Virus record (IMG/VR): IMGVR_UViG_3300050120_000246
Location: 1-27,733 of that record
Origin: a virus
Strand: one strand, 5' to 3'
DNA length: 27,733 bases
Positions within the stretch are counted from its first letter, which is position 1, and each line of letters begins with the position of its first letter. The position numbers were made by a program, and so were the translations under genes. This document shows, one piece after another, positions 1,652 to 25,324 of the stretch. The notes beneath the pieces were generated by a model that was not told the DNA's origin, searched no databases, and was given only the letters and a program-made list of their open reading frames with translations.

Positions 1652-2127
1652 TGACGACGACGAAACAACGCAAAAAGCCTTATCGGTCGCACGACCCCGA
1701 TTCAGTCAAATTGAAGATGCAGCCTTGGAAGGTCGCAGCGGTTATGAATCCTTTGCTCGCGATCGTTGACCAATTGGAGCATCAGGGCGTGATTGATGTG
1801 ACGCGTTCCGGTCGGGCTGTATTCAAAGACCCGAGCGATGGATATTGGTACGACACACCCGTCGCAATTATCGGCGTCGTCGATGCATACGAGATTCACG
1901 TGCGACGTACCGGCATCGACTTACGTCTGGATGCATTGCGCCGGCTGGCGAACAAGATCGAATACCACATGCCCGTCATGGCCGAGGACACCAATGCCGC
2001 GCGCGACTGCCTCGACCGCATCCGCGTTGCGACATTGGAGATGACCGCTGGCTATGCAAAGCAGTTGGTCAAGGATTTTCAAATTAAAGAAGCAATCGAG
2101 GAAACGTTAGGGGAGTCGCCATGTTGA
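1651..2127 (+). CDS. Conserved-looking phage protein of unknown function
   Basis: I do not recognise a defined function. The 158-residue reading starts at the ATG fused to the previous stop (TAATG); an upstream in-frame start at 1618 would overlap the nuclease gene and is less likely. The N-terminus is basic (TTTKQRKKPYRSHD). The centre has alternating strands (YDTPVAIIGVVDAYEIHV) and the C-terminal half is helical with regularly spaced Leu and Arg. There are no membrane segments, signal peptide or metal-binding cluster. It lies between the nuclease and the proposed late regulator and overlaps the latter by 7 bases, so it is probably expressed with both. Confidence 0.6.
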   Translation: MTTTKQRKKPYRSHDPDSVKLKMQPWKVAAVMNPLLAIVDQLEHQGVIDVTRSGRAVFKDPSDGYWYDTPVAIIGVVDAYEIHVRRTGIDLRLDALRRLANKIEYHMPVMAEDTNAARDCLDRIRVATLEMTAGYAKQLVKDFQIKEAIEETLGESPC

Positions 2128-2516
2128 AACGAGTGAGAAAAGAAGATGTGTTGGTGGATAGCTGGATAAAGCCAGACGGTTTGCTTTATTGCCTAGATTG
2201 TTGGAAAGAGTGGATGCACGGTGATCCGGATCGCGATCTAGGCGCCAAGCCAATGGGCGGTTTGGCCGGTGATGCTGATGGCTACGGAGTCAGTTCGTCC
2301 GAGCAACAGCAGGCTCGCAACACGCGTATAGCAATAGCCACGGATGCCATGATCGACAGCCTCAAGAGAATTCATATTTGGGCGATCTATACCTCATGCA
2401 GCGTCGGCAAGGTATGGAATTACCCGAATGCTGACTTGGTTTCCACGGCGGAGGAGGCGCGTGTTGCATTAACTGAAAAACTTAAAAAAAATGTTTGCAC
2501 TGGCGTTCTGTTCTGA
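2121..2516 (+). CDS. Candidate late-gene regulator (Q-like by position)
   Basis: The 131-residue product starts at the ATG at 2121 with GGGGAG nine bases upstream. The N-terminal half has C24 and C27 (YCLDCW) and a Gly-rich linker. The C-terminal half (IATDAMIDSLKRIHIWAIY, later EEARVALTEKLKKNV) has the helical pattern seen in short regulators that precede the packaging genes of betaproteobacterial prophages. Its stop is directly followed by a sigma70-like promoter (2495-2522, overlapping its last codons) and two terminators, the same order as Q, pR' and tR' in lambda. The antitermination role rests on that context. No homology to a characterised Q was demonstrated. Confidence 0.45.
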   Translation: MLKRVRKEDVLVDSWIKPDGLLYCLDCWKEWMHGDPDRDLGAKPMGGLAGDADGYGVSSSEQQQARNTRIAIATDAMIDSLKRIHIWAIYTSCSVGKVWNYPNADLVSTAEEARVALTEKLKKNVCTGVLF

Positions 2517-2522
2517 TATGCT
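2495..2522 (+). promoter_or_regulatory. Candidate late promoter (pR'-like)
   Basis: A -35 element TTGCAC (2495-2500) and a -10 element TATGCT (2517-2522) are 16 bases apart. The spacer holds a tandem GTTCT repeat (2505-2514), and CTGAT occurs at 2513-2517 and again 11 bases later at 2524-2528. Transcription would begin near 2529 and run into the terminators at 2592 and 2656 before reaching the packaging genes. Confidence 0.55.
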
Positions 2523-2572
2523 CCTGATCCATAGGCGGTCTCTGTTCGCCTAGAGATTTGCAACATATCAGA
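2512..2572. repeat. Nested inverted repeats at the late promoter start
   Basis: Outer arms TCTGATATG (2512-2520) and CATATCAGA (2564-2572) match perfectly. Inner arms TAGGCG (2532-2537) and CGCCTA (2547-2552) also match. The outer left arm overlaps the -10 element, so the pair could form a cruciform or leader RNA structure. A 9-bp pair at this distance is expected a few times by chance in a window of this size, so the location is the main argument. Confidence 0.4.
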
Positions 2573-2591
2573 TAGATTCGTGTAAGTCGTA

Positions 2592-2621
2592 AGCCTGCCA
2601 CCATCCCGTCGCGGGCTTTTT
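2592..2621 (+). terminator. Intrinsic terminator 1 in the late leader
   Basis: AGCCTGC (2592-2598) pairs with GCGGGCT (2611-2617), with one G-T wobble, and a T run follows to 2621. A start near 2529 would give a transcript of about 90 bases ending here. Confidence 0.6.
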
Positions 2622-2655
2622 GCATTTCAGAATGTCTCCTCCATGAAAGTGGATT

Positions 2656-2679
2656 GCCGCCGTGATGGGCGGCTTTTTT
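2656..2679 (+). terminator. Intrinsic terminator 2 in the late leader
   Basis: GCCGCC (2656-2661) pairs with GGCGGC (2668-2673) around a six-base loop, followed by six T. It lies only 13 bases before the HNH start codon. Confidence 0.8.
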
Positions 2680-2692
2680 ATTTGTGAGTCAC

Positions 2693-3118
2693 ATGCCAGC
2701 CCGTCCACGCAAGCCATGCCGCCAAGCAGGATGCCGTGAGCTGATTGCTGGCGGTGAGCATTACTGCGCAGCACACACAAAGGCCAAGCAAACCAATGAC
2801 ACGGCGAGGCGCGGTACTGCCGCCCAACGCGGCTACGACAGTGCTTGGACAAAGGCACGCGGGCATTACCTGCGTGTTCATCCATTGTGCGTTCATTGCA
2901 AACGTGATGGCCGAGTGGTTGCTGCAACGGTGGTTGATCACATCATCGCGCATCGGCTAAAGGATGCGCTCGATAGTGGTGATGATGCGACAATCGCAAA
3001 GGCGCGCAGCTTGTTTTGGGATAGCGCGAACAACTGGCAGTCATTGTGCAAAACGCACCATGACATCAAGACAGCCACCAAGGACGGTGGATTCGGTAGG
3101 GCGCGTAAAGGTTCGTGA
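2693..3118 (+). CDS. HNH endonuclease of the packaging module
   Basis: The protein has 141 residues from the ATG at 2693; a GTG at 2684 is possible but would start inside the terminator spacer. An N-terminal cluster C9, C14, C25 and H28 looks like a small zinc-binding knot. The HNH domain follows: CVHC (C66, C69), VDHIIAHR (D82, H83), NNW (N113-N114), then C119 and THHDIKT (H122, H123), where H123 is the expected last catalytic His. HNH proteins next to TerS and TerL stimulate specific cos cleavage in HK97-like phages and are essential for packaging there. Immediate proximity to TerS and TerL supports that role here. The ribosome site is weak (GTGAG). Confidence 0.85.
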   Translation: MPARPRKPCRQAGCRELIAGGEHYCAAHTKAKQTNDTARRGTAAQRGYDSAWTKARGHYLRVHPLCVHCKRDGRVVAATVVDHIIAHRLKDALDSGDDATIAKARSLFWDSANNWQSLCKTHHDIKTATKDGGFGRARKGS

Positions 3119-3474: not shown

Positions 3475-3951
3475 ATGCCTGGAGTCGCAGGCCGCTCCGG
3501 ACGCAAGCCAAAGCCCTCGGCGAAGAAAGAACTGGCCGGCAACCCGGGCAAGCGGCAAATCAACAAATTAGAGCCGGACTTCGGACGCGTCACGAATATC
3601 GACCCGCCAGAATGGTTGGCGCAGGATGCGCGGGACATGTGGGAGCGCGTCGCACCGCTGCTGTGTTCACAAAATGTGTTGCAGCTCACCGATCTGCATA
3701 ATCTTGAAATATTTTGCTCTGCGTATGGCAACTGGCGAATCGCGCAGTTCGAGCTGACCGCAAACGGCCCTGTAGTGATGGGCGCCCAAGGCGGCCCGGT
3801 CAAAAATCCAGCAGCCACCGTCGTCAAAGAGGCTGCAGGGCAAATGGCGACGTTTGGCGCAATGCTCGGGCTTGATCCGTCCAGCCGGCAGCGCCTCATG
3901 GCACCAAAAAAGAAAGGGCAGGGCAATCCGTTTGCGGCATTGCTGGGCTAA
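3475..3951 (+). CDS. terS: Terminase small subunit, P27 family
   Basis: The 158-residue product starts at the ATG at 3475 with AGGAA six bases upstream; an upstream GTG at 3445 lacks a ribosome site. The N-terminus GRSGRKPKPSAKKELAGN and the following NPGKRQIN are typical of the P27 family of small terminase subunits, with a basic DNA-binding arm, a helical core (WLAQDARDMWERVAPLL, LHNLEIFCSAYGNW) and a Lys-rich tail (PKKKGQGNPFAALLG). It recognises phage DNA at cos and loads TerL for headful or cos cleavage. TerL begins three bases after the stop. Confidence 0.9.
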   Translation: MPGVAGRSGRKPKPSAKKELAGNPGKRQINKLEPDFGRVTNIDPPEWLAQDARDMWERVAPLLCSQNVLQLTDLHNLEIFCSAYGNWRIAQFELTANGPVVMGAQGGPVKNPAATVVKEAAGQMATFGAMLGLDPSSRQRLMAPKKKGQGNPFAALLG

Positions 3952-3954
3952 TCG

Positions 3955-5658
3955 ATGGCAAAAGAGAAATTCCCGCTGGTTGCCAAGGCAAACCAGTTTG
4001 CGCGAGACATCGTGCGCGGGAAAAAACCGGCCTGCCGGTATGTAATTCTGGCTTGTCAGCGGCATTTGGACGACCTTGCGGCCAGCAAATCGGCGCGCTT
4101 TAAGTACAAATTCGACCCGTTGAAGGCAGAAAAGAAGCTGCGTTTAATCCAGCTATTACCGCATACCAAGGGTGAGTGGGCGTACAAGCGGCAGCTGGTG
4201 ACATTGGAGCCGTGGCAGTTGTTTGGCATAGCCTGCACATTTGGCTGGGTCAAGAAAAAAAGCGGGCTGCGTCGTTTCCGTGAGTCGTATTGGGAGGTGC
4301 CGCGCAAGAATGGCAAATCCGTCATCGCGGCAGGCGTCGGTCTCGGCATGTTTGTCGCCGACGATGAATTCGGCGCCGAGGTTTATTCGGGCGCCACCAC
4401 GGAAAAGCAGGCTTGGGAAATTTTCCGGCCGGCGCGCCTGATGGTGCTGCGTTCGCCAATGCTGATTGAGCACCTTGGCATCGAAGTCAATGCCGAAAAT
4501 CTGTGTCGCCCGGAAGACGGAAGTCGTTTTGAGCTGTTGACCGGCAATCCTGGCGATGGCGCATCGCCGTCGTGTGCGCTGGTCGACGAGTTCCACGAGC
4601 ACGATACATCCGCTCTGTACGAAACGATGGTTACTGGTATGGGCGCGCGGCGCCAAGCGCTGATGTTCATTATTACGACCGCCGGCGCGAATATCGAAGG
4701 CCCGTGTTACGACAAGCGGCGCCAGGTCATTGAAATGCTCGAAGGCACGGTGCCGGACGACGAGCTTTTCGGTTGGATATGGACGATCGATGAGGGCGAC
4801 GATTGGACCAACCCGAAAATTTTGGCGAAAGCCAATCCGAATTTCGACATTTCGGTCTACGCCGATTACCTGATCAGCCAACAGCAAAAGGCGATCAAAA
4901 CGGCGCGCTTTACCAACACATTTAAGACCAAGCATTTGAATGTTTGGACTTCGGCCAAGGAGGGGTTTTTCAACCTGGAAGCTTGGCGCGCCTGTGAAGA
5001 CAAGACTTTGTCATTGGAGCAGTTCGAGGGACAGCAGTGCGTTCTAGGGTTTGACCTTGCGCGCAAATTGGACTTGAACAGCCTGGCACGCTTGTACTGG
5101 CGCGATATCGACGGCCGCCGGCACTATTACAGTGTGGCGCCGCGGTTCTATGTTCCGGAAGATACGGTAACTAATATCGAAAGCCGCCGCACTGCCGAGC
5201 GGTATTCGAAGTGGGTGACGCTGGGCGTGCTGACTGCGACCGACGGCGCCGAGGTGGATTACCGCGAAATTCTGGAGGATGCCAAGGAGGCAAACAAGAT
5301 ATCGCCCGTGCTATGGAGCCCAATGGATCCGCACGGCGCCACCAATTTGTCGCATCACTTGGACGACGAAGGGCTCAATCCGATCACGATTACCCAGAAT
5401 TACACGAATCTGAGCGACCCAATGAAGGAGCTTGAGGCGGCGATTTTAGCCGGCAGATTCCACCATGACGGTAATCCGATCATGACGTGGTGCGTAAGCA
5501 ATGTTATTGGCAAGAATATTCCGGGTAACGATGACGTGGTGAGGCCAATTAAGCAGGGCGATGAAAACAAGATCGATGGTGCGGTCGCGTTGATTATGGC
5601 GATCGGACGGGTTCTCTCAAATGAAGATCCGGGTAAATCCTTTTGGGAGACAGCGTAG
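3955..5658 (+). CDS. terL: Terminase large subunit (packaging ATPase and nuclease)
   Basis: This 567-residue protein pumps DNA into the prohead and cuts it. The ATPase part has a Walker A-like motif VPRKNGKS (residues 115-122), Walker B ALVDE (208-212) and the coupling motif TTAG (241-244). The nuclease part shows GFDLA with D367, MDPHG further on, and a late Asp in NKIDGAVAL near the C-terminus, as expected for an RNase H-like nuclease. The order and length fit the Terminase_1 (P27/HK97-type) family. The ribosome site is weak, and translation probably depends on TerS three bases upstream. The TAG stop overlaps the GTG start of the portal gene. Confidence 0.95.
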
Positions 5659-25247: not shown

Positions 25248-25275
25248 TGGTCGGGACGGAGTGATTCGAACACTC
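25248..25275. other. Candidate attachment site (attR), 3' end of tRNA-Pro
   Basis: The 3' part of the tRNA gene (T-arm, acceptor and CCA) faces the prophage, the usual arrangement when a tyrosine integrase uses a tRNA 3' end. The matching partial copy would be at the left end, outside the window, so the exact core cannot be defined here. Confidence 0.4.
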
Positions 25276-25324
25276 GACCCCTTGCACCCCATGCAAGTAC
25301 GCTACCAGGCTGCGCTACGCCCCG
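25248..25324 (-). tRNA. tRNA-Pro (anticodon GGG)
   Basis: On the minus strand the 77 bases fold as a full cloverleaf. The acceptor 5' strand CGGGGCG (from 25324) pairs with CGTCCCG near the 3' end, with one G-T pair, then discriminator A and an encoded CCA at 25248-25250. The anticodon stem is CTTGC/GCAAG with a seven-base loop containing GGG, and the T-loop is TTCGAAT. It decodes CCC (and possibly CCU). It is intact, lies 36 bases after ppc, and has its own promoter. It is the likely integration target of the prophage. Confidence 0.95.

Follow-up and report, generated by a model that had tools for sequence, protein, structure and literature searches.

Gene order and the candidate late regulator

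The analyzed DNA (the window), a virus record from IMG/VR, is 27,733 bases long and represents a prophage fragment. Its left side carries replication-type genes, structural genes reach to about 25 kb, and a tRNA gene and a host-type gene are located at the right. In the order of the strand, a resolvase-like gene is followed by a candidate regulator gene, a putative promoter, two predicted terminators (T1 and T2), an HNH gene and the genes for the small and large terminase subunits (Table 1). The large terminase subunit shows 70-74% identity to annotated phage terminases. The host is probably a betaproteobacterium. At the right end, a tRNA-Pro(GGG) (25248-25324, minus strand) adjoins a host-type gene, which from its sequence we take to encode PEP carboxylase; this end is a possible prophage attachment site.

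Table 1. Features of the late control region and the adjoining packaging genes (window coordinates).
Feature	Position	Strand	Description	Basis
Candidate late regulator	2121-2516	+	131 aa, in Q position	CxxC at residues 24-27; helical C-terminal half
Putative late promoter	2494-2522	+	TTTGCA (2494-2499), 17 bases, TATGCT (2517-2522)	aligned in 36 sequences; profile built without the window
5' leader hairpin	2532-2552	+	UAGGCGG-UCUCUGU-UCGCCUA, at the expected RNA 5' end	conserved; moves with the promoter
Predicted second leader hairpin	2555-2588	+	GAUUUGCA/UGUAAGUC	RNA fold only
Predicted terminator T1 (tR'1-like)	2591-2621	+	stem 2591-2598/2611-2618, U-run to 2621	fold
RF02278-like module	2633-2680	+	UGUCUCCUCC (2633-2642), hairpin UCCAU-GAAA-GUGGA (2640-2653), T2 (2656-2679; stem 2656-2661/2668-2673, U-run 2674-2679)	Rfam, profiles
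HNH endonuclease gene, first late gene	2693-3118	+		PHROGs HNH families, E 1.6e-31
Terminase subunit genes, HK97/SfI type	3475-5658	+	small (3475-3951) and large (3955-5658) subunit	Pfam Terminase_4, E 2.4e-25

Relatives of the candidate regulator were found in about 45 viral contigs (39-62% identity) by three scans of viral contigs together with an HMM check. The motif CLxCWKxWM close to the N-terminus is shared by the family, as is the C-terminal half with KLKxNVCTxxLF at its end. The first-pass annotation could name no Q protein that resembles the regulator, and this was borne out: for the regulator and its relatives (15 members) no match was obtained in Pfam, PHROGs, NCBIfam or the PDB sequences. 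No credible relative was found among annotated or named phages, plasmids and representative genomes. The AlphaFold2 model is helical with a mean pLDDT of 76, and searches with this model using Foldseek and VIA-align returned no useful match to a Q-like or any other fold. Judged by its sequence, the regulator is not a member of any named Q family.

Promoter and conserved layout in related phages

The stop codon of the regulator gene (TGA, 2514-2516) lies inside the span of the promoter, which therefore overlaps the gene end; the C-terminus KKNVCTxxLF is encoded over the −35 region. This overlap had been described in the first-pass annotation, as had the hexamers TTGCAC (2495-2500) and TATGCT (2517-2522) with 16 bases between them and the two terminators directly downstream, and these positions were found to be right. 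The alternative reading with TTTGCA and 17 bases fits the relatives better.

In a plain consensus scan of the window, the promoter (matching at 8 of 12 positions) and T1 were both missed, and the number of terminators found (8) showed no excess over shuffled sequences (7.3). Taken alone, the promoter and the terminators are therefore unconvincing. When a profile of promoter plus leader was derived from 23 other phages, leaving the window out, its best match was 2494-2556 with an E-value of 3.8e-8, the next match having 0.28. At the level of sequence, promoter and leader are thus above chance by conservation, not by the consensus scan.

For the comparison of the layout, the sequences downstream of the regulator stop codon in the relatives were aligned on the −10 hexamer. 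Almost all relatives whose sequence is readable show the order TTGCA or TTGTA, about 17 bases, TAnnnT, 5-8 bases, a hairpin and a terminator at the place of T1. The hairpin is of the type AGGCGG-loop-UCGCCU, with UUCG often found in the loop, and downstream of it AGAGAAAAGCC often leads into T1. In seven relatives the promoter is located 3' of the stop codon; here the spacer is unrelated and the hairpin keeps an unchanged distance from the −10 hexamer. Because the hairpin travels with the promoter in these seven relatives, the conservation of both is not a by-product of coding. The promoter-hairpin unit is not shown by a few relatives (e.g., L007, L259 and L263). In the leaders of L012, L016, L020 and L294, the UUCG type is replaced by a second class of 5' hairpin, whose apical stem is UCUCC-UAUG-GGAGA or CGC-UAUG-GCG.

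The order of regulator, promoter and two terminators ahead of the HNH and terminase genes had been likened before to the Q, pR', tR' order of lambdoid phages, and the relatives keep this layout. The regulator might instead be an activator or another kind of late regulator, the terminators then serving only to insulate the late operon. The −35 (TTGCA) is poor compared to the consensus, as in activated promoters, and antitermination at this locus is itself something that we infer. However, that almost every relative has a terminator immediately after the promoter is understandable mainly if readthrough is regulated, and Q-regulated phages have the identical order, so that an activator is considered very unlikely.

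Leader RNA and the candidate loading site

The RNA from 2531 to 2680 is predicted to form a row of hairpins and folds better than all of 200 shuffled sequences (z −3.2). The distance from about 2531 to the end of T1 at 2621 amounts to about 90 nt, in agreement with the earlier prediction of an RNA of approximately 90 bases ending near 2621. A profile of the transcribed part only, again built without the window, found the window leader with an E-value of 3.8e-4. Covariation in the 5' hairpin is modest: 86 of 102 cells are paired compared to 80 in shuffles, with 7 and 3 double changes, respectively (p ~0.01), in an alignment whose arms were placed by hand, which favors pairing.

The Q proteins of lambda and phage 21 depend on a binding site between −35 and −10 and on a −10-like pause motif within the first bases of the transcript (PMC6606751). 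The window contains the repeats GTTCT (2505 and 2510) and CTGAT (2513 and 2524, 11 bases apart), which the first-pass annotation had suggested as the loading site. Of the two elements whose conservation it had proposed to check by aligning related sequences, the promoter was found to be conserved and the repeats were not; in the seven relatives with a non-coding spacer, the spacer sequence is unrelated. Where promoter and gene overlap, the similarity of the spacer is what the coding end predicts. The pause motif of the lambda and phage 21 type (TANNNT) was found in 0 of 32 leaders, and NANNNT in the first transcribed bases of five of the 32, the window not being among them. The likeliest cis-signal would be the conserved 5' RNA hairpin or its DNA, a better candidate for the loading site than the spacer repeats. 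The earlier interpretation thus holds with respect to the layout and the unnamed regulator, fails for the loading site, and had missed both the conserved 5' hairpin and the sRNA-like module at T2 described below.

These results bear on the possibility that the regulator is a true Q-type DNA-binding antiterminator, which would bind the promoter DNA and load on sigma-paused RNA polymerase, the RNA elements of the leader being only terminators. Position and size of the protein fit Q proteins, and the helical C-terminal half of the model could hold a helix-turn-helix. The Q proteins of phage 21 and lambda are unrelated in sequence (PMC6606751), so that missing homology is no bar. The unconserved repeats and the counts for the pause motif speak against it, as does the fact that the conservation sits in the 5' hairpin, and we regard this possibility as somewhat unlikely. 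By its layout the region looks like a Q system; membership in the Q families is not supported by the protein sequence, the repeats or the pause motif.

Related late leaders contain a further conserved RNA hairpin with a covarying stem, a 5' bulge ACUUUG and an inner stem-loop CAGA-UAGC-xCUG (e.g., L017:534-567, L162:2264-2297, L196:1304-1337, L273:3966-3999 and L318 near 5674). It was matched 36 times with at least four stem pairs, and its covariation score was 0.43 compared to 0.18 in shuffled and at most 0.125 in slid alignments. One locus was compared with Rfam and gave no clear match. This hairpin accompanies different genes in the Q position. It was ruled out as a part of the window leader, although the 7-mer CAGATAG is present at 2569-2575; the predicted second leader hairpin (2555-2588) scores 0.2 bits and does not belong to this element. 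In the late leader of L294, a tRNA-Ser(UGA) directly follows the 5' hairpin, in addition to a tRNA-Gly and an overlapping permuted-tmRNA prediction (3873-3954, 4844-4915 and 4890-5236).

An RF02278-like module at the second terminator

The Rfam model RF02278 matched the region 2633-2680 over its whole length with 28.2 bits and an E-value of 1.4e-5 for the record, which is below the gathering cutoff of 50 bits. The order of the match in the window is UGUCUCCUCCA, a small hairpin, UGGAUU and a terminator. The anti-Shine-Dalgarno stretch is present at the 5' end of the module, and the fold of 2621-2682 contains two hairpins, the second being a terminator. Hairpin 1 of the window has the loop GAAA and lacks the second CU-rich stretch, which is present in this loop in L008, L015, L156 and L295.

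RF02278 also matched 14 further virus records, mostly regulator-bearing, with 25-40 bits, whereas other matches there reached at most 24 bits. The best phage copy scores 40 bits, and all phage copies are thus under the gathering score. Of 14 control genomes, only one gave a match to RF02278 at E ≤ 0.01. Applied to 81 loci, a model built from 12 phage modules including that of the window (R1) gave 35 full-length matches above 27 bits, each of them on the late strand; L257 had been fetched in reverse, its minus-strand match corresponding to the late strand. With a module profile built without the window, the module of the window was the best match (E 3.8e-4).

Of 27 modules, 25 carry TCTCC at their 5' end. 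The sequence of hairpin 1 changes in a compensatory manner, with 76 of 80 cells paired compared to 44 in shuffles and with 35 and 9 double changes, respectively, the arms having been chosen and aligned by hand, which favors pairing. The motif order GUCUCC, hairpin, CUUCGCC, terminator is found 5' of packaging genes in dozens of phages. In some of these phages the gene in the Q position is an unrelated one (e.g., L196, L197 and L199), and there, too, the module precedes HNH or terminase genes. L012 and L144 are relatives without the module. In L008, L015 and L257, genes separate T1 from the module, and in loci such as L008 and L015 T2 is therefore not simply a second terminator of the leader.

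Directly 3' of the T2 module in the late leader of L162, a tRNA-Gly(UCC) was observed (2694-2766), and L336 and L388 have a similar tRNA-like stretch. Further Rfam matches around the region (mir-7910, suhB, sR35 and CRISPR-DR54) were judged to be due to chance, and a search of the viral contigs with the pattern TCTCCTCCAN{3,30}TGGATT was too unspecific.

The pairing of the module with ribosome-binding sites inside the phage does not exceed the level of chance after 33 tests. The best match is GGGAGACA (5646-5653) near the start of the gene in portal position, which is complementary to UGUCUCC of the module (−14.4 kcal/mol, 2.3 sd from the background), yet within chance for 33 genes. That no trans target stands out among the phage ribosome-binding sites would fit an ordinary terminator at T2, whose UCUCC has an effect in cis, such as base pairing to the ribosome-binding site of the first late gene, and does not act as part of an sRNA. 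The module is often located just 5' of a GAGG-type Shine-Dalgarno sequence. However, pairing with the first late gene is poor in the window (−9.3 kcal/mol compared to a background of −8.1), different genes follow the module in other phages, and the module matches free-standing host RF02278 sRNAs in order and sequence. A role in cis is considered unlikely. The second terminator may, as judged from its sequence, also be an sRNA module resembling RF02278.

Proposed late-gene switch

From sequence, conservation, gene order, fold prediction and Rfam similarity, we infer promoter activity, antitermination, a loading site and the release and action of an sRNA. In this reading, to which we assign a probability of roughly 0.6, the region would be the late-gene control of a temperate siphophage-type prophage, with a Q/pR'/tR'-like switch whose second terminator doubles as an sRNA module. 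By default, the sigma-70-type promoter that overlaps the regulator gene end would fire; most transcripts would be about 90 nt long and end at T1, and those leaking through would reach about 150 nt and end at T2. Once accumulated, the protein encoded at 2121-2516 would modify RNA polymerase near the promoter, so that T1 and T2 are passed as by Q, and on induction this readthrough would lead to transcription of the HNH, terminase and structural genes. The missing similarity of the regulator to any known antiterminator speaks against this model, as do the RF02278 scores below the gathering cutoff, the lack of the second CU-rich loop in the window, and the relatives that have genes between T1 and the module or have no module.

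In the RNA ending at T2, the double-hairpin module would leave the anti-Shine-Dalgarno stretch (UGUCUCC) free. Either whole or cleaved by an RNase upstream of the module, as for S17 of Bordetella, this RNA may act as a trans base-pairing sRNA on ribosome-binding sites. By analogy with StxS, S17 and RF02278, such an anti-Shine-Dalgarno RNA would be made in the lysogen.

Comparison with known systems

The Q/pR'/tR' systems of lambda, phage 21 and the Stx phages likewise consist of a regulator gene, a promoter at its end, a short leader, one or more terminators and the late genes, and default termination would be expected here as well. In contrast to these, the protein has neither sequence similarity nor detected structural similarity to Q, and conserved binding repeats and a −10-like pause motif are missing. 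The leader has a conserved 5' RNA hairpin, and HNH and terminase genes follow instead of lysis genes.

A leader RNA structure as a possible antitermination signal is shared, by description, with the HK022 put RNA, N/boxB and LoaP, its role here being that of a candidate. The put RNA of HK022 needs no protein and is located in early operons.

RF02278 RNAs are described from Burkholderia and Herbaspirillum as 'toxic' or double-hairpin sRNAs, with CU-rich stretches directed at ribosome-binding sites (PMC4603805, PMC7011215, PMC5688073); those of B. cenocepacia are a precedent (PMC5688073). For the similar S17 of Bordetella, RNase E was described to release a 67-nt 3' part from a transcript of 190 nt, and this part represses translation at ribosome-binding sites (PMC11722255). 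The Burkholderia RNAs and the related S17 share with the module the 5' UGUCUCC(UCC), hairpin 1, the linker UGGAUU/GGACUU and a terminator hairpin with U-run within about 50-70 nt. The module of the window differs in its score (28 bits compared to the 50-bit cutoff), in its location in a phage late leader and not in an intergenic host gene, and in a shorter hairpin 1 lacking the CU-rich loop.

The sRNA StxS of Stx phages comes from the PR'-tR' transcript and shows that the terminated late leader of a lambdoid phage can be processed into an sRNA (PMC7873438). The Stx phages have, in principle, the same arrangement of an sRNA from a terminated late leader that acts at a ribosome-binding site. Here, however, the resemblance to an sRNA lies in the second terminator, and the likeness is one of principle, not of sequence.

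Under a more far-reaching reading, which we regard as quite unlikely, the region would represent a new class of late antitermination, in which a small non-Q protein is loaded via the nascent RNA hairpin at the extreme 5' end of the late transcript and the default-terminated leader releases a phage anti-Shine-Dalgarno sRNA of the RF02278 type. One leader would then couple the late-gene decision to translation control in the cell.

If the proposed switch is correct, it would provide a phage context for a growth-inhibiting betaproteobacterial sRNA family of poorly understood origin and role, and would extend the StxS principle to phages of another bacterial class. A further gain would be a candidate family of antiterminators that may be loaded through an RNA signal instead of a DNA signal. 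The RNA model makes late-operon boundaries findable in uncharacterized prophages.
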